From positions 1 to 34,635 of IMG/VR virus record IMGVR_UViG_3300049043_000089: 34,635 bases of DNA; one strand, given 5' to 3'. This DNA is from a virus. This document shows positions 11,814 through 33,404 of this stretch, piece by piece. The position numbers and the translations under genes were made by a program. Every line of letters starts with the position of its first letter. Position 1 is the first letter of the stretch. The notes beneath the pieces were generated by a model. That model was not told the origin of the DNA. It did no database searches and worked only from the letters and a program-made list of their open reading frames with translations.

Positions 11814-13234
11814 AAACAAACAGCACTTACTTGAATTATTGACTGAAAAAGCGTTGCGGCAAAAACGTCAGAAAATTTCGTCATATTTTCCTGACCAAGG
11901 CGAGTTTAGACGTGACTTGTACGCCAAACATTTGTCTTTTTTTGAAGCGGGCGCGACGTATCGTCAGCGCTTAATGCTTGCCGCGAATCGCGTTGGTAAA
12001 ACAGAGAGCGGTAGGCTGTTATGAACTTAACGTTGCATTTAACGGGCGATTATCCGCACTGGTGGCAAGGTCGGCGTTTTGATAAACCAATCAAAGCGTG
12101 GGCAGCGGGTGATACGGGCAAAACCACCCGTGATATTTTGCAAGAGAAGTTACTAGGCAAAGTGGGCGAGTTTGGCACAGGCGTTATTCCCCATAAATCG
12201 CTAGGACGTTTAAGCGCGAAAGCAGGGATTGCAGATGCAATAGAGATTATTCAAGTCAAGCATCAGTCAGGTGGTTTTCGACGCTCAACTTAAAGTCTTA
12301 TGACCAGCGGCGTGAGGCGTTTCAGGGGAGCGAACAAGACGTCATTTTACTGGATGAAGAACCACCGCTTGAAATTTACACTGAATGTCTTTTGCGAACA
12401 ATGACAAACAACGGAATGCTAATGCTGACATTCACGCCATTGATGGGGATGTCGCAAGTGGTGTTGGCATTTTTACCCACAGGGCAGATCAGCGAAGAAC
12501 AAACCGACAAATCAAAGTTTGTTGTGACGGCAACTTGGGACGATGTGCCCCATCTAAGCGATGACGTTAAAAAAGAACTTTGGGATTCTATCCCACCGTT
12601 TCAGCGTGATGCACGCTCCAAAGGTGTGCCGCAACTTGGCGCGGGGGCAATTTATCCTGTGCCTGAATCTGATTTTGTGGTGGATGATTTTGCAATTCCC
12701 GAGCATTGGCAAAAAGTGTATGGCATGGACGTGGGGTGGAATCGCACCGCGGTTGTGTGGGGTGCAATTGATAGAGAAAACGACACGATTTATTTATTTA
12801 GTGAGCATTATCGCGGACAAGCCGAGCCCATTATTCACGCAGACGCGATCAAATCGCGTGGCGATTGGATCCCTGGTGTGATTGACCCAGCGTCACGCGG
12901 CAGAAGTCAAAAAGATGGTGAGCAACTCTATGACCAATATTTACAAATGGGTTTACACATATCAACGGCAATCAACGCCAGAGAAGCGGGCATCTATGGG
13001 GTATGGCAGCGATTATCAAGCAGCAAACTCAAAGTGTTTCGCTCACTGTCAAATTGGTTAGCAGAATTCAGACTTTATCGGCGCGATGAGAAAGGGGCGA
13101 TTGTCAAAGAAAACGATCACTTAATGGATGCCACACGGTATTTGGTGATGTCAGGCACTTGCTTGGCACAAACCGCACCGTCCAAAAAACCAAAATACAC
13201 TGAACACGCATATAACGGCGGGTGGATGGGATGA
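11803..13234 (+). CDS. terL: Terminase large subunit (frameshifted)
   Basis: This is the packaging motor ATPase and nuclease. The N-terminal segment has Walker A at residues 60-69 (AANRVGKTES). The second segment reads LHLTGDYPHWWQGRRFDKPI, then WAAGDTGKTTRDIL. The third has Walker B VILLDEEPP and the nuclease region VYGMDVGWNRTAVVWG, GVIDPASRGRSQ and HLMDATRYLVMSG. Breaks lie near 12012-12030 (two inserted bases restore GGCYELTLHLTG) and near 12281 (a T-run). The restored length is about 477 residues. The ATG lies inside the end of the small subunit gene, and the stop overlaps the portal ATG. Confidence 0.92.
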
Positions 13235-15265
13235 ACGACGAACAAGCTGAAAACCTCGCAGACGACAATACGCCTGATGATATTTTAGAAGACGCAAAAG
13301 AGAAATTTCAACGCGCCAGTGACGCAGAGGCTGACAATCGACGCGATGCTTTAGATGATCTGCGTTTTGCAAGACTCTCGCAACAATGGCCCGACGCTAT
13401 CAAAAAGAGCGCGATCGTGAACAACGCCCCTGTCTTACCATCAACCGTTTGCCCGCGTATATCCGTCAAGTCGTCAATGACGCGCGACAAAATAAACCCG
13501 CAATAAAATGCCATCCCGTTGATGAAAAAAGCGATCAAGAAACGGCAACGATATTGAACGGTTTAATCAGAAACATTGAATATACCTCAGATGCTGATGT
13601 GGCGTATGACACAGCGCTAGAAGCAGCGGTCACGTCAGGCTTTGGCTATTGGCGCGTTAATATCGAGTACACGCATGACGACACGTTTGAGCGCGATTTG
13701 ATTATTGAGCGCATTAATAACGCGTTTAGTGTTTACGGTGATCCTGACAGCACTGCGGCGGATTCTAGCGATTGGAACTATTGTTTTGTGACAGAGATGA
13801 TCACTAAAGAAGAATTTAGTCGGCGCTGGAAAGATAACAAACCGGTTGACTGGTCTGTCAGCGGCTATAAAGCGCTGTCGTCCCCATGGTTTGATGATGA
13901 AAATGTCTTGGTGTGCGAGTATTGGATACGCGAGCCAATCACACGATCTATTTTTCAACTCAGTGATGGCAGCACGATTGACGCGACGGTGTTTGATCAA
14001 TCAAAAGACATTTTTTCAGCCTTAAATTTGACCATTGTTCAACAACGCGACGTGTTAAGTCATCGGGTTGTGCAGTATTTAATGACAGGCGCTGAAGTGC
14101 TAGAGCGAAACGTGTGGGCGGGGCGATACATTCCGATTGTGCCTGTGTATGGCGATGAAGTGAATGTTGAAGGCGTGCGCTATTTTCGCTCGTTGATTCG
14201 TGACGCAAAAGACAGCCAAATGATGTTTAACTACTGGCGCACCACGGCAACAGAAATCATGGCATTGTCGCCAAAAGCGCCTTTTATTGGCAGAAAAGGG
14301 TCGTTTAATTCTGACATTGACAAATGGTCAACAGCCAATACGACTAACCATGCGTTTATTGAATACGACGGTCAAGAACCGCCCCAACGCCAAGCCATGC
14401 CGCAACCTGCCACAGGCATGCTACAAGAAGCCGTGAATGCGTCGGAAGATATTAAAGCGATTATTGGCATTTTTGATCCTGCGTTAGGTAAGCCCAACAA
14501 CGAAACCAGCGGCAAAGCGATTCTTGCGCGTCAACGTGAAAGTGATACATCGACGTTTCATTTTATCGACAATCTTAATCGCGCTATTCGTCACACGGGC
14601 AGAATTTTGGTGGATTTAATTCCCAGTGTCTACAACAGCCAGCGCATCATTCGCATTTTAGGCGATGACGAAAAACCGCAAAATATTCCTATTGGTCAAC
14701 CGACAATTAACCCACAAGGCATTGAGCGCATCTATGATTTGACGGTGGGTAAATATGACGTCACGGTGGAGTCGGGCGCATCGTTTACAACAAAACGCGA
14801 AGAAGCAGCCAATCAAATGTTGGAGTTTATGCGCATCATGCCGCAATCAGCACCGATGATTGCTGACCTTTTAGCCAAAAATTTGGACTGGGCAGGCGCG
14901 ATGAAGTGGCGCAACGTTTTGCAGCGCTATTGCCGCCACAAGCCATGGGGCAAAATCCACAAGTGATGCAACTGCAACAGCAACTTCAACAGCAGCAACA
15001 ACAATTCAGCCAGCAAATGGGGCAAATACAGCAAGATTTGCAGATGACCAAAGGGCAATTAGCCGCGGCTGCCACCGAGTTACAAAAGAAAGAACTTGAT
15101 AAACAAGTGGACATTCAAAAACTGCAAATTGACGGTTTTAAAGCGGAAACCGATCGGTTAAAAATCACGCAAGTCGCCATGTCACCTGAGCAAGTGCAAG
15201 CATTGGTCAATCAATCCGTGCAGCAAATTTTAAATTCACCTGATGTTTTACCTATTACGCCTTAA
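13231..15265 (+). CDS. P22-like portal protein (two frame breaks)
   Basis: The portal forms the dodecameric DNA channel at the head vertex. The N-terminus MNDEQAENLADDNTPDDILE and DDLRFARLSQQWP leads, after a break near 13390-13410, into a 526-codon ORF. There RPCLTINRLPAYIRQVVNDA and SGFGYWRVNIEY are diagnostic of the P22_portal family. A second break near 14898 separates the Gln-rich C-terminal domain (LQQQLQQQQQQFSQQMGQI), which may form the coiled-coil barrel seen in P22. The total of about 678 residues is close to P22 gp1 (725). Confidence 0.92.
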
Positions 15266-23417: not shown

Positions 23418-25625
23418 ATGTTAATTTTAAAAAAGCTTTTTAATTTTTTAGTGCCGCGCTTAAATTATGCGCCCAGTAGCGGCGGTTCAACCACAACGGT
23501 GCAAAAAGCGGATCCGTGGGTTGGGGTGCAACCCTACATTAAAGATTTAATGAAACAAGCAGAGGATTATTACAACAGCACAAATAATCTATCTGACGAT
23601 CAAAAAAAGCTCATTGCCGATCAGCAAGCTAAATTACAAGCGCAAGGCAGTGATGCGTCGTATCAAAACGCTGCAAAAGATATTCTCAGTGGGAAATATA
23701 ATACAGATCGTCAAAATGTTGCGGATGCTCAACAAGGCGATAAGATTGCGTACAATAATGCTCAACAAGGCGATAAGATTGCGTTTAATGATGCAAAAGC
23801 AACAAAATCACAATATAAAGGCATGGGCGATGCTGAACACGCATTAAGTGCCGCCATCAACACAGATACGTTAGGTAAAAGTGACTATAACGACATCAAC
23901 CAAACCAAATTGCCAGATGCAACATTGATGAATAATGCGGCATTTGATCCGCAATCAGCTGTCAATCAATTAACAAAAAGCATTGCGGGGCAAGCTTCAA
24001 ATCAATTCATCACAGACAGCGACAAAATTTCAAATCAAGTTGTCAGAAACCAGCAAGCGTCTGTAACAAATGCAGGATTAGATTCAGCGAATGGTATTTT
24101 TGCTAAAAATCCGTTTCTTTCACAATTAGTAGCCGCTCGTCAATCGCAAGGCAGCGTGGATCCGACCGCAGCATTAAAAGAACTTTTAACAGGTTCAGTG
24201 GATAACCCGTATTTGGCGGCGGCAAATAAAGCCAATATTGATCAATCCATGCAGGGCTATAATGATATGTTGCAAAAATTGCAACAAACCGTTTTGCCAC
24301 AAATTGGCGATCAAGCGGTGGCAAATGGGCAATATGGCTCAAGTCGTCACGGCATAGCAGAAGGATTAGCGTTGCAAGAAGCGCAACGCACTGCACGAGA
24401 TTTAACGCAATCTAACGTGGGGGCGGGCAGTAAACTGTATGCAGACGCTTACAACCAAGCGCAAAATCAAAAAGCACAAACCGCGTTGGAACTTAATCAA
24501 CAAGCAGGGCAGAATTCTCAATTTAACGTTAATAATCAAAATCAAAATCAACAGTTTTATGATCAATTGTTGCAACAAGTTAATTTAGCTAATCAAGCCG
24601 CAGCAAATCAAAATCAACAATTCAATGCATCCAATGCAAATGATTTGTCAAAATTCAATGCGCAATTAGGCTTAGATGCAAGTAAAACCAATGCAGCCAA
24701 TAATTTAGCCGCTCAACAATTTAATGTTTTGCAGCAAAATGACATTAATAAACAAAACGCGCAAAACTTTAATAATATGTCGCAATTTAATGCGCAAAAT
24801 AACACACAAAACAGTCAATTTAATGCAGCACAAAGCAATAATATTTTTAACCAGTTAACAAATCAAAATCTGCAAAATCAACAACAAGCGTATTTAACCA
24901 ATGCACAAGCGCAAAATAATTTTGCGTTAAACCAAGCGCAATTAGACGCGGCACGAAATACCACCAATGCGGCAAATCAACTGCAAAATTCACAGTTTAA
25001 TGCCACTGCGTTAAATAATGCCATGAATCAAAATGCCAATTATTTGCAACAAACTGGTATAGCTAATATGCAAGCCGATAATGCCCAAAAACAATTTGAT
25101 GCCAATAATTACATGGCAAATTCACAATTTAATGCTGGGCAAGCTAACAACATGGCGCAATTTAACGCTCAAAATAACTTGGCAGCAAATCAATACAATT
25201 CACAGCAGCAGCAGCAGAATAATCAATTTAACGCTCAAAATAACTTAGCAGCAAATCAATACAATTCACAGCAGCAGCAACAGAATAATCAATTTAATGC
25301 CAATTTAGGTTTGCAAAACAATAATTATGCTTTGCAACAAAATGCTCAAAACATGGGCAATCAACTGACAGGATTAAACACGCTCAACCAAGGCTATCAA
25401 ACTCAAAATCAAAATTACAATTCTTTAATGTCTTTAGCCAATGCACCGCAAGATCAAAGATTAAATGCGTTAAATGCGTTTAGTGCGTTAATTAACGGTG
25501 GCACGTATGGTGGACAAACCACAGGACAAACCACGCAATCGTTAGGCAGTGGTGGCATGATCGGTAATTTGTTAGGCGGTGGTTTAGGCGCTGCGGGCTT
25601 GGGCAAAGTGCTTGGGTTATTTTAA
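23418..25625 (+). CDS. N/Q-rich ejection or internal virion protein
   Basis: The start at ATG 23418 (MLILKKLFNFLVPRLNY) is preferred to 23400. The N-terminal part GGSTTTVQKADPWVGVQPYI is found in phage internal or DNA-ejection proteins. From residue about 340 to 680 it is dominated by Asn and Gln, built on the repeating unit QFNAQNN. The C-terminus is glycine-rich and hydrophobic (GGGLGAAGLGKVLGLF), suitable for membrane insertion. It is intact at 735 residues. It contains two internal DNA repeats listed separately. Confidence 0.75.
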   Translation: MLILKKLFNFLVPRLNYAPSSGGSTTTVQKADPWVGVQPYIKDLMKQAEDYYNSTNNLSDDQKKLIADQQAKLQAQGSDASYQNAAKDILSGKYNTDRQNVADAQQGDKIAYNNAQQGDKIAFNDAKATKSQYKGMGDAEHALSAAINTDTLGKSDYNDINQTKLPDATLMNNAAFDPQSAVNQLTKSIAGQASNQFITDSDKISNQVVRNQQASVTNAGLDSANGIFAKNPFLSQLVAARQSQGSVDPTAALKELLTGSVDNPYLAAANKANIDQSMQGYNDMLQKLQQTVLPQIGDQAVANGQYGSSRHGIAEGLALQEAQRTARDLTQSNVGAGSKLYADAYNQAQNQKAQTALELNQQAGQNSQFNVNNQNQNQQFYDQLLQQVNLANQAAANQNQQFNASNANDLSKFNAQLGLDASKTNAANNLAAQQFNVLQQNDINKQNAQNFNNMSQFNAQNNTQNSQFNAAQSNNIFNQLTNQNLQNQQQAYLTNAQAQNNFALNQAQLDAARNTTNAANQLQNSQFNATALNNAMNQNANYLQQTGIANMQADNAQKQFDANNYMANSQFNAGQANNMAQFNAQNNLAANQYNSQQQQQNNQFNAQNNLAANQYNSQQQQQNNQFNANLGLQNNNYALQQNAQNMGNQLTGLNTLNQGYQTQNQNYNSLMSLANAPQDQRLNALNAFSALINGGTYGGQTTGQTTQSLGSGGMIGNLLGGGLGAAGLGKVLGLF
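23727..23792 (+). repeat. 33-bp tandem duplication
   Basis: Two adjacent 33-base copies (23727-23759, 23760-23792) encode AQQGDKIAYNN and AQQGDKIAFND in frame in the ejection protein. The copies differ at a few bases near the end. Confidence 0.9.
25158..25289 (+). repeat. 66-bp tandem repeat in the N/Q-rich region
   Basis: Two 66-base copies (25158-25223, 25224-25289) encode QFNAQNNLAANQYNSQQQQQ plus NN. They differ by very few bases, and a partial third unit follows at 25290. The length being a multiple of 3 keeps the frame. Confidence 0.9.
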
Positions 25626-30865: not shown

Positions 30866-31845
30866 TCAGTTTTGAGTTTTTTGAGTCAGTACGCTATCAG
30901 CAAAATGTCCAAGATGTTTCGCTGCTTAAGTGGGCATAGCGTATCACCATAGTTAACCATCATGCCCATCCGCCCAATTCTTTGATCGCGTTTAAGTGGC
31001 GTACCATTCTGAACGTGCCAGCTTGCCCAAGTATGACGTAAGATCGTGCCATCTAAAATCTTCAATCCCTGCACGTTTTAGTGCTTTAATCGCCAGGCAT
31101 GTTGATTAGCACGCGAAACCGGATTTTCCGTTTCGTAAGTAAACACTCGAACGTTTTATGATTTGCCAATTTGCAGCTCTAATACATTGCACAGCGATCA
31201 TCATTGAGCGGCACAGCATATGGCCTTTCCGAGATTTTGATTGATCTAGCATGAATCCAAGCACAGCGCCTTTGCAAGATCAACCTGCTGACCATCTCCA
31301 AGACCGGTGACGTTCGATTCACGCAAGCCTGTTGCCAGTGTAAACCAGACCATTGATTTTAAATGATCGACGGTAGTTGCTGCAGATTAGCGTTTGTGCT
31401 TGCTCTTTCGCGTAATCATTGTACGACTCGCTTTTGCGGCTCATTAATGGTGAAGTTTTAATGTATGGCATATCTATAGCCACTGCCATTCATTTTGTAA
31501 GCTACGATTCAAGTACGGACGTATTAACACGCCAACATTCTGATTAACGGACGCGTTGCTTAACGCCTGATTCGCGTCTTTTGGATCTTTAATTGATCAA
31601 CGACGCTCGCGCGTTAATCTGTGCACAAGGCTGATGTCGCTAAATGCGGATCTAAGATAGCGAAAATGCACCTGCATTGTCGCAGCGCAGACTTTTTTAT
31701 GCGCCATCTTCGTCACTACGATAACGAACAACGGCTTGCTGCCAAGTATATCTTGGCCGCGCACCCAGTTTTGCTTCGTCCCACGACTGTGTTTTTAAGG
31801 CGATCGTGCAATTCTTGCGCTTTGCGTTTGTCTTGCGTGCCAGCA
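30866..31845 (-). CDS. int: Tyrosine integrase (many frame breaks)
   Basis: This is a site-specific recombinase for prophage integration. Reading minus-strand fragments in order gives an arm/core part (GTQDKRKAQELHDRLK, EAKLGARPRYTWQQAVVRY). Then comes TLATGLRESNVTGL with the first catalytic Arg. The box-II region reads ILRHTWASWHVQNGTPL in one frame and DFRWHD in another, supplying the H-x-x-R. RYAHLSSE follows with the nucleophilic Tyr. The tail FADSVLTQKTQN ends at TGA 30866-30868. At least ten indels separate the pieces. An ordinary integrase N-terminus is absent, and upstream the sequence runs directly into the HTH protein. Confidence 0.85.
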
Positions 31846-32131: not shown

Positions 32132-32189
32132 TTTCTTTACCCAATAAAACATCCTATCGATGTCTCAATAGGGTTTGTTTCGTAACACA

Positions 32190-32269
32190 TCGCCTCGCCT
32201 TGCCTGTCCTTGCCTCGCCTTGCCTGTCCTTGCCTCGCCGTGCCCATCCTAGCCCCGCCTTGCCGCTCC
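32190..32269. repeat. Pentamer array A: 16 in-register NNNCC units
   Basis: From 32190 the plus strand can be read as 16 consecutive 5-base units without a slip, such as TCGCC, TTGCC, TGTCC, GTGCC and CATCC. Every unit ends in CC and most have G or T at position 3. On the minus strand this is a run of GG every 5 bases. It lies in the leader of the HTH/int gene. Confidence 0.9.
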
Positions 32270-32270
32270 C

Positions 32271-32313
32271 TGATTGAATATCAATCAAAATACCGACTCA
32301 AAGAATCGGTATT
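32271..32313. other. Two hairpins between the pentamer arrays
   Basis: TGATTGA-ATA-TCAATCA (32271-32287) and AATACCGA-N9-TCGGTATT (32289-32313) are perfect inverted repeats placed head to tail between the two arrays. The second could act as a weak terminator in either direction, but neither side has a strong T-run. Confidence 0.75.
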
Positions 32314-32323
32314 AAGTTTAATA

Positions 32324-32419
32324 CTGCCCTTGCCGTGCCAATCCTTTCCTTGCCGATCCATGCCCTGCCCGTCCCCGCCGATCCCTGCCACGCCCCGCCT
32401 ATCCATGCCTAGCCGCACC
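32324..32419. repeat. Pentamer array B: 18-19 NNNCC units
   Basis: Units from 32330 to 32419 (TTGCC, GTGCC, AATCC, TTTCC, GATCC, and so on) keep a strict 5-base register for 18 units, all ending CC. One more unit (CTGCC, 32324-32328) is offset by one base. It is the same type as array A, with different unit order. No ORF in this segment looks genuine. Confidence 0.9.
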
Positions 32420-32440: not shown

Positions 32441-33083
32441 TCAAGACCATTCTGCAATGTCAAATTTGCCAAACACACCGCGAAATGTGCCTAATCCGAT
32501 GGCAATACCACCATCGAGTATTAAGTTTTTAATCTCGGCTTCTTTAATTTCTTTATTGGGAAAAATTGACAGATTAAATGTCAAGTCCCACGACAGTGGT
32601 AACACTGGTCGTTCTTTGGGATTTGAATAGTTTTCTCTAGCCGCGCTACGCTTCTGTGCAAATACAAGCCAGATGTTTTATCTTCAGTGTTACCAAAAAC
32701 GCCAATTTCAATTTCTTCGCCATCACGGGTAAACGGGATGTACTGTCCACCGTCAGGTGCTGCGAAATTGACAAAACTCAGACAAGCGTTGCAAACATCC
32801 TTGTAGGCGCGTTTGTCCCGTAAGCGTTTCGGTGCGCGTGTTGGTGTTGTGCGCTCATGAAGGATGATAAATTCGTGGTTGGTAAACTCACGATGTTCGT
32901 GCCAGGTTTTAAATAAATTTTCTCGTGCCATTGTAGTGTCGTTTTGTTATCGCCAGGATACCGATCAAACATGACCGGCGTGATACCTCTTAGTGTGACC
33001 TTTCGTGTCACGATTTTTAATCGTGTATCTGATTCGGTGCTGATAGTGACGTTTTCTGTTTCGATTTCGGATTTTTTTGCCAT
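32441..33083 (-). CDS. Conserved phage protein with RAMP-like C-terminal motif (frameshifted)
   Basis: The ATG at 33083 follows AGGAAACAACA. The protein reads KVTLRGITPVMFDRYPGDNK and KPGTNIVSLPTTNLSSFMSA in one frame. The next has GGQYIPFTRDGEEIEIGVFG and SGLYLHRSVARLEKTIQIPK. After another break it reads WDLTFNLSIFPNKEIKEAEI, then LDGGIAIGLGTFRGVFGKF and DIAEWS at TGA 32441-32443. I recognise it as an unnamed family found beside phage SSB genes. The final GLGTFRGVFGKF resembles the glycine-rich loop of RAMP proteins such as Cas6, but homology is unproved. Breaks lie near 32860 and 32585. It is about 215 residues. Confidence 0.7.
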
Positions 33084-33092
33084 TGTTGTTTC

Positions 33093-33404
33093 CTAAAAAA
33101 AAGCCCCTTGCGGGGCGGGTTTTGTTTTACGTTTGCTTAGTGATGTTTGCCAGTCAAAACGTAATTCGCTTTTGTAAGCGACACATGATCGCCCACCGAC
33201 GCTAGACCATAAGCCAAATTGTTTTTCCAGATCAGGCTTGTATTCAAACCAAAACCATGTGCCGCTCAAATCCTGCGCCAGCCAATTTGCCCACGCAGGT
33301 GCTATGTCCCATGACGGACGATTAGGCAAGCCGCCTTTTTGAGCAATTCTAAAGACTTCAAATACGTCATAAATGAAACGGCACGCGTTAGAAAGGAATT
33401 TCAT
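33093..33404 (-). CDS. Trp-rich small phage protein
   Basis: From the ATG at 33404 (overlapping the ssb end) the product is MKFLSNACRFIYDVFEVFRI, then PSWDIAPAWANWLAQDLSGT, WFWFEYKPDLEKQFGLW and LRFDWQTSLSKR. The pattern D-x-APxWA-x-W-x-AQD followed by paired aromatics and a terminal DWQ-x-SL is a known type of unnamed phage protein of about 100 residues. The reading continues through the downstream terminator hairpin to a TAG at 33093-33095, so the true stop may lie earlier and be hidden by an indel. Confidence 0.6.
   Translation of the reverse strand: MKFLSNACRFIYDVFEVFRIAQKGGLPNRPSWDIAPAWANWLAQDLSGTWFWFEYKPDLEKQFGLWSSVGGRSCVAYKSELRFDWQTSLSKRKTKPAPQGAFF
33095..33116 (-). terminator. Rho-independent terminator
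   Basis: Minus strand GCCCC-GCAA-GGGGC is followed by eight or more T. It lies between the Trp-rich gene and the RAMP-motif gene. The ribosome site of the latter begins right after the T-run. Confidence 0.85.

Follow-up and report, generated by a model that had tools for sequence, protein, structure and literature searches.

The window analysed here spans an entire IMG/VR virus record (34,635 bases). The portal, S24 repressor and terminase identify a temperate P22-like podophage, whose closest portal relative (52% identity) is found in a Chlorobiaceae phage that carries no arrays of the kind described below. On the minus strand, a predicted gene for a RAMP protein (vipr) is followed by two arrays of GG-containing pentamers, labelled vrRNA 1 and vrRNA 2 after the guide RNAs they are predicted to encode, and then by an HTH gene and an integrase (Table 1). 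Elsewhere in the window, a 66-bp tandem repeat (2.1 copies; 25158–25297) was noted in a gene for a Q/N-rich protein.

Table 1 Features of the predicted vipr locus, in minus-strand order.
Feature	Position	Strand	Basis or remark
Intrinsic terminator-like hairpin	33092–33116	−	GCCCC-GCAA-GGGGC then T run; directly upstream of vipr start
vipr gene (RAMP protein, phrog_4652)	32441–33083	−	Family HMM and tblastn; frame broken near 32835 and near 32650
Predicted vrRNA 1 guide tract, 18 GG-N-NN repeats and terminal GG	32328–32419	−	Sequence
Predicted vrRNA 1 structured 3′ tail, holding both inverted repeats	32270–32327	−	Fold z = −4.9; predicted extent
Predicted vrRNA 2 guide tract, 16 GG	32193–32269	−	Sequence
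Putative vrRNA 2 3′ tail hairpin, overlapping HTH gene start	about 32135–32192	−	Fold z = −3.3; predicted extent

On the plus strand, block 1 (32190–32269) comprises 16 NNNCC units with zero exceptions, and block 2 comprises 18 units (32330–32419) together with an extra in-register CC at 32328–32329, giving 19 CC. A preliminary description of this DNA had reported blocks of 16 and 18 units in strict 5-bp register, with a CC in every unit, two freely varying positions and mostly G or T at position 3, and all of this was confirmed, with the one further CC as an addition. The 16 and 19 CC in strict register compare with a maximum of 5 among 100 simulated 34.6-kb sequences from a first-order Markov model, each scored for its longest period-5 CC/GG run (simulated maxima were 2–5, and 3 in most). 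Read on the minus strand, each unit takes the form GG-C/A-NN, with free variation at two positions only: the GG is kept in 35/35 units of the window, and the next base is C in 22, A in 10 and each of the others in 1–2. From 5′ to 3′, the NN dinucleotides of vrRNA 1 are GC TA AT TA GG GT AG TC GG CG AG AT TC AA AA TT AC AA, and those of vrRNA 2 are GC AA GG TA TG AC GA AA CA AA GA AA CA AA GA, with a last CGA before the tail. An internal 20-nt duplication makes up the 3′ half of the vrRNA 2 tract (block 1).

Coding read-through of the array was considered and rejected, as some frames are open merely because such repeats contain no stops. The array is non-coding, as first proposed, and we also agree that it is neither a CRISPR nor a simple microsatellite: its units are 5 nt long with two variable bases, no array of near-identical 20–40 nt repeats and spacers was found in the window, and the units vary around a constant register and CC pair. 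A blastn search of the array against phages returned weak chance matches only, and the literature searched on pentanucleotide or pentameric phage repeats yielded nothing relevant. A comparison with Rfam gave no convincing match in the vicinity of the array, and none of 12 relatives had a match at gathering level.

The two inverted repeats reported between the blocks are present, and the stretch that holds them folds at −18.8 kcal/mol. Both this stretch and the one that follows block 1 in the minus-strand sense fold far better than shuffled sequences (Table 1), whereas the tracts themselves show no notable folding (z = −0.5 and −1.5). Two unstructured tracts followed by well-folded tails match a guide-plus-tail plan. 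The tails differ in sequence from each other; that of vrRNA 1 begins GCAGTAYT, resembling the post-array stretch in the Paraburkholderia locus L129, and the putative vrRNA 2 tail contains a terminator-like stem (32172–32153). At the other end of the locus, the terminator-like hairpin ends about 8 bp ahead of the vipr start codon, with no room for a promoter between. Transcription from the ssb operon would be kept out of vipr by this hairpin or would need antitermination to pass it. A consensus scan found no sigma-70-like promoter.

This organization resembles that of VIPR (Viral Interference Programmable Repeat) systems as set out in a preprint (bioRxiv 10.64898/2026.04.26.720920; PMC13142463), in which the type example is Escherichia phage SUSP1 and seven types (I–VII) are given. 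According to the preprint, a system consists of Vipr, a small RAMP with an RRM core, a glycine-rich loop and a thumb, and of vrRNAs that comprise 9–16 YNNGG repeats and a folded 3′ tail and are encoded in intergenic regions on the flanks of vipr, mostly in phages. The repeats alternate GGY and hypervariable NN, with "a related consensus" in some types; hammerheads are mentioned in some arrays, and a vap accessory gene is typical, not universal. The NN dinucleotides are described as reading double-stranded DNA with a one-base skip, aligned to codon wobble positions, and the Vipr–vrRNA ribonucleoprotein (RNP) as a reprogrammable repressor of transcription that is directed in nature against competing phages and satellites (PMC13142463). 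Like the SUSP1 system, the window locus combines a RAMP Vipr, tandem GG repeats that are sense to vipr and intergenic beside it, a structured 3′ tail, variable NN and a phage genome as its carrier.

The vipr gene and its protein family

By sequence, the gene upstream of the arrays is a member of the phrog_4652/Vipr family. The family HMM matches it in two frames (E = 7e-13 and 1.6e-5), and in a tblastn comparison with the intact relative L090, residues 5–202 align over three frames. A glycine-rich loop, GLGTFRGVFGKF, is found at its C-terminus. The family, phrog_4652, is listed as of unknown function; it was matched by 52/52 aligned members, and it has no Pfam counterpart. When the family profile was compared with the PDB, the sole significant match was entry 36pp, "SUSP1 Vipr protein" (E = 2.4e-36), and a structural model of a family member (pLDDT 91) has Csm3/Cas7-type RAMP subunits as its top structural matches. 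Across the family alignment, the C-terminal glycines are invariant and an R, a P and an F nearly so, a pattern that we take to be the RAMP glycine-rich loop. Sequence divergence is large, with the clade Vipr L090 showing only about 14–25% identity to most other aligned members.

The window vipr carries two frameshifts within 650 bp, and in its deposited form the locus would yield no Vipr protein. One explanation is decay of a VIPR locus, in which the vrRNAs are real and vipr has been inactivated, leaving them as relics or served by a Vipr that some co-resident element supplies. Such decay falls within the VIPR explanation and differs only on whether the system works. The recent 20-nt duplication in block 1 would fit it. 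However, other genes of the window are also split across frames (262–910, 12021–13234, 13222–15265 and 31000–31600, among them a PhoH-like ATPase, the terminase, the portal region and the integrase), which suggests assembly indel errors, and both tracts keep a perfect 5-nt register across about 170 bp. Because reading frames are fragmented elsewhere in the window, sequencing indels in an error-prone contig are the likelier cause of the vipr frameshifts, and decay of the locus is unlikely, although a realistic prospect.

Association of arrays with vipr across viral loci

The association between array and protein was found to be reciprocal. An array-first scan of IMG/VR (at least 9 CCNNN units and a composition filter) yielded 110 loci, 83 of which have a phrog_4652-family protein beside the array, and the G-rich strand was sense to vipr in 80/80 members examined. 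A protein-only search yielded 80 viral loci and a further 4 in genome assemblies, 84 in total; sense arrays lie within 700 bp of the gene in 80 of the 84 and antisense arrays in none, so that the pattern is indeed present in loci with relatives of the adjacent protein. Arrays are ~42-fold denser near vipr (188 in 165 kb) than elsewhere in the same loci (16 in 587 kb). The suggestion that the minus-strand RNA is a relevant molecule is upheld.

Among relatives, arrays occur both upstream and downstream of vipr; in the window, both are downstream and sense. Clade arrays of at least 8 units extend up to 42 units, with C after the GG in 2096/2239 units and A in 71/2239 (3%), compared with A in 10/34 units (~29%) in the window. 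A at this position is commoner in the nearer relatives of the window, e.g. L137, L129, L151 and L154, in counts uncorrected for kinship. The close relatives L148/L150 and L166/L167 differ by whole 5-nt units with the GG kept, and between L137 and L170 (15 GG each) there are changes in NN (2) and in the third base (1) and none in GG. Many clade arrays end in GGCAAGGCAAGG or GGCAAGGCGAGG, and the 3′-terminal units may be constant.

The preliminary description had placed the arrays in the leader of the int/HTH transcript and had proposed a nucleoprotein site of the Int/Xis or IHF kind, in which a GG at each half turn would position protein on alternating DNA faces beside int. An HTH gene and an integrase-like sequence do lie just downstream of the array. 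However, the arrays track vipr across relatives, always in the sense orientation and on either side of the gene, whereas a DNA-binding site would need no fixed strand relative to vipr. Clade gene-neighbourhood clusters around vipr include no int cluster, the HTH gene of the window falls in no cluster common to the neighbouring genes of the clade, and the near-vipr genes common to the window and other clade loci amount to ssb only (6 loci). The arrays are more aptly regarded as the 3′ flank of vipr, which lies upstream of them, than as a leader of the HTH gene and integrase, which merely follow, and an Int/Xis/IHF-like site is very improbable given that arrays go with the Vipr RAMP protein over many loci.

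The same description had raised a second function for a leader RNA, namely two-tetrad G-quadruplexes with 3-nt loops that regulate the HTH/int transcript. The sequence GGNNNGGNNNGGNNNGG fits the two-tetrad motif, and a quadruplex may form in vitro, but quadruplexes require neither a fixed register over as many units as the longest clade arrays contain nor the prevailing C as first loop base, and they do not explain the co-occurrence with a RAMP protein. As the array matches the published vrRNA architecture, we consider the chance that quadruplex formation accounts for it to be close to nil.

Other features were observed around clade loci. Very long or multiple GG arrays are present in L029 (6310–7012), L080 (7607–9150), L166 (just downstream of 5327) and L188, with runs that reach 42 consecutive units and as many as 11 matches in one locus; these may represent several guides or fused guides. 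A recurrent inter-array element ending GGTGGAAACACCAA lies downstream of arrays in L161, L147 and L156 and is possibly a processing or self-cleaving motif, with no Rfam match at the gathering threshold. A second family, phrog_15946 (function unknown; motif like DPxSPLHxxFEWDDxxAA), occurs near vipr and GG arrays in 23 loci, e.g. L104 (14012–14659), and is a candidate vap accessory protein.

Guide code and target searches

The NN dinucleotides of the arrays were compared with the codon composition of neighbouring genes, omitting the last three units of each array and using no target. Across 3368 NN dinucleotides from 157 loci, codon positions 1–2 fit better than positions 2–3 (delta lnL 94) and 3–1 (delta lnL 426), and they were the best fit in 999/1000 bootstraps over loci. 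Guides that skip the wobble base would be expected to give such a fit, and base-composition biases could contribute. In a skip-length test on a small set (1.9 Mb of collected loci), skips of 0–3 were indistinguishable.

Targets of the window guides were sought by exact pattern. No match in IMG/VR was found for the 12- and 10-NN patterns or for the 9-NN pattern of vrRNA 1. The 9-NN pattern of vrRNA 2 had one match, in L216, where it lies in codon frame within a phage gene for DNA polymerase I; the next NN matched at 0/7, and this candidate was set aside because about one chance hit is expected, by an estimate that takes 18 fixed bases and assumes tens of Gb of sequence. A search of 369 genomes from the class of a Methylococcaceae MAG that carries a relative likewise gave no target match. 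The relevant rivals may be absent from the collections searched.

Relation to known systems and proposed mode of action

We conclude, with little room for doubt, that each of the two blocks is a vrRNA and that both belong to a VIPR system, a new instance of an already known kind. The hairpins between the blocks are the vrRNA 1 tail, with predicted boundaries. Differences from the published systems are seen in several respects. The unit of the window is GGM rather than GGY, with a strict Y in roughly two thirds of units; the tracts, with 18 full repeats in vrRNA 1 and 16 GG in vrRNA 2, reach or exceed the upper end of the published range, and a long tract may contain two or more guides; and no vap-like accessory gene common to the clade was recognised among vipr neighbours. 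It is conceivable, although doubtful, that the window represents a subclade of VIPR with the post-GG base relaxed from a pyrimidine to C or A and with no recognisable accessory gene. If this is true and the subclade lies beyond the seven published types, it would represent a variant in which GGM is accepted by a Vipr that acts unaided, through binding. Relaxation of the third base is a modest variation, and the locus needs no new mechanism.

The class 1 CRISPR RAMPs (Csm3/Cas7) share the fold of the protein and a plan of guide tract and handle. Unlike class 1 CRISPR, however, the window has no repeat-spacer array and uses a pentamer code rather than a contiguous spacer, and no cas genes were recognised near the locus. 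TIGR-Tas systems, like VIPR, have a phage-borne guide array that is read in short pieces, but their proteins are Nop-domain proteins of a different family from Vipr and their repeats are longer.

RNP formation, the one-base skip, double-stranded DNA binding and repression are taken here from the other VIPRs of the preprint. By this analogy, transcription of the minus strand immediately beyond vipr would give the two vrRNAs, each made up of a GG-Y/M-NN repeat tract and, after it, a folded 3′ tail. Vipr would bind along the tract, most simply with one subunit per 5-nt repeat, and would keep the GG and the next base unpaired while presenting the two N bases. Successive NN pairs would read double-stranded DNA with one unpaired base between them (NNxNNxNN), and each guide would specify a 3-bp-periodic target, tolerant at codon wobble positions. 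Once bound, the RNP would presumably repress transcription in a rival, be it a phage, a prophage or a satellite.

VIPR, a class of RNA-guided DNA recognition first described only months ago, is proposed to predate CRISPR. The locus and its relatives (83 found by array and 84 by protein) extend VIPR to a divergent clade with a relaxed third base. The resemblance of NN to codon positions 1–2, obtained free of any target, gives independent, if indirect, support to the one-base wobble skip, and the array pattern alone is a good finder of Vipr loci.
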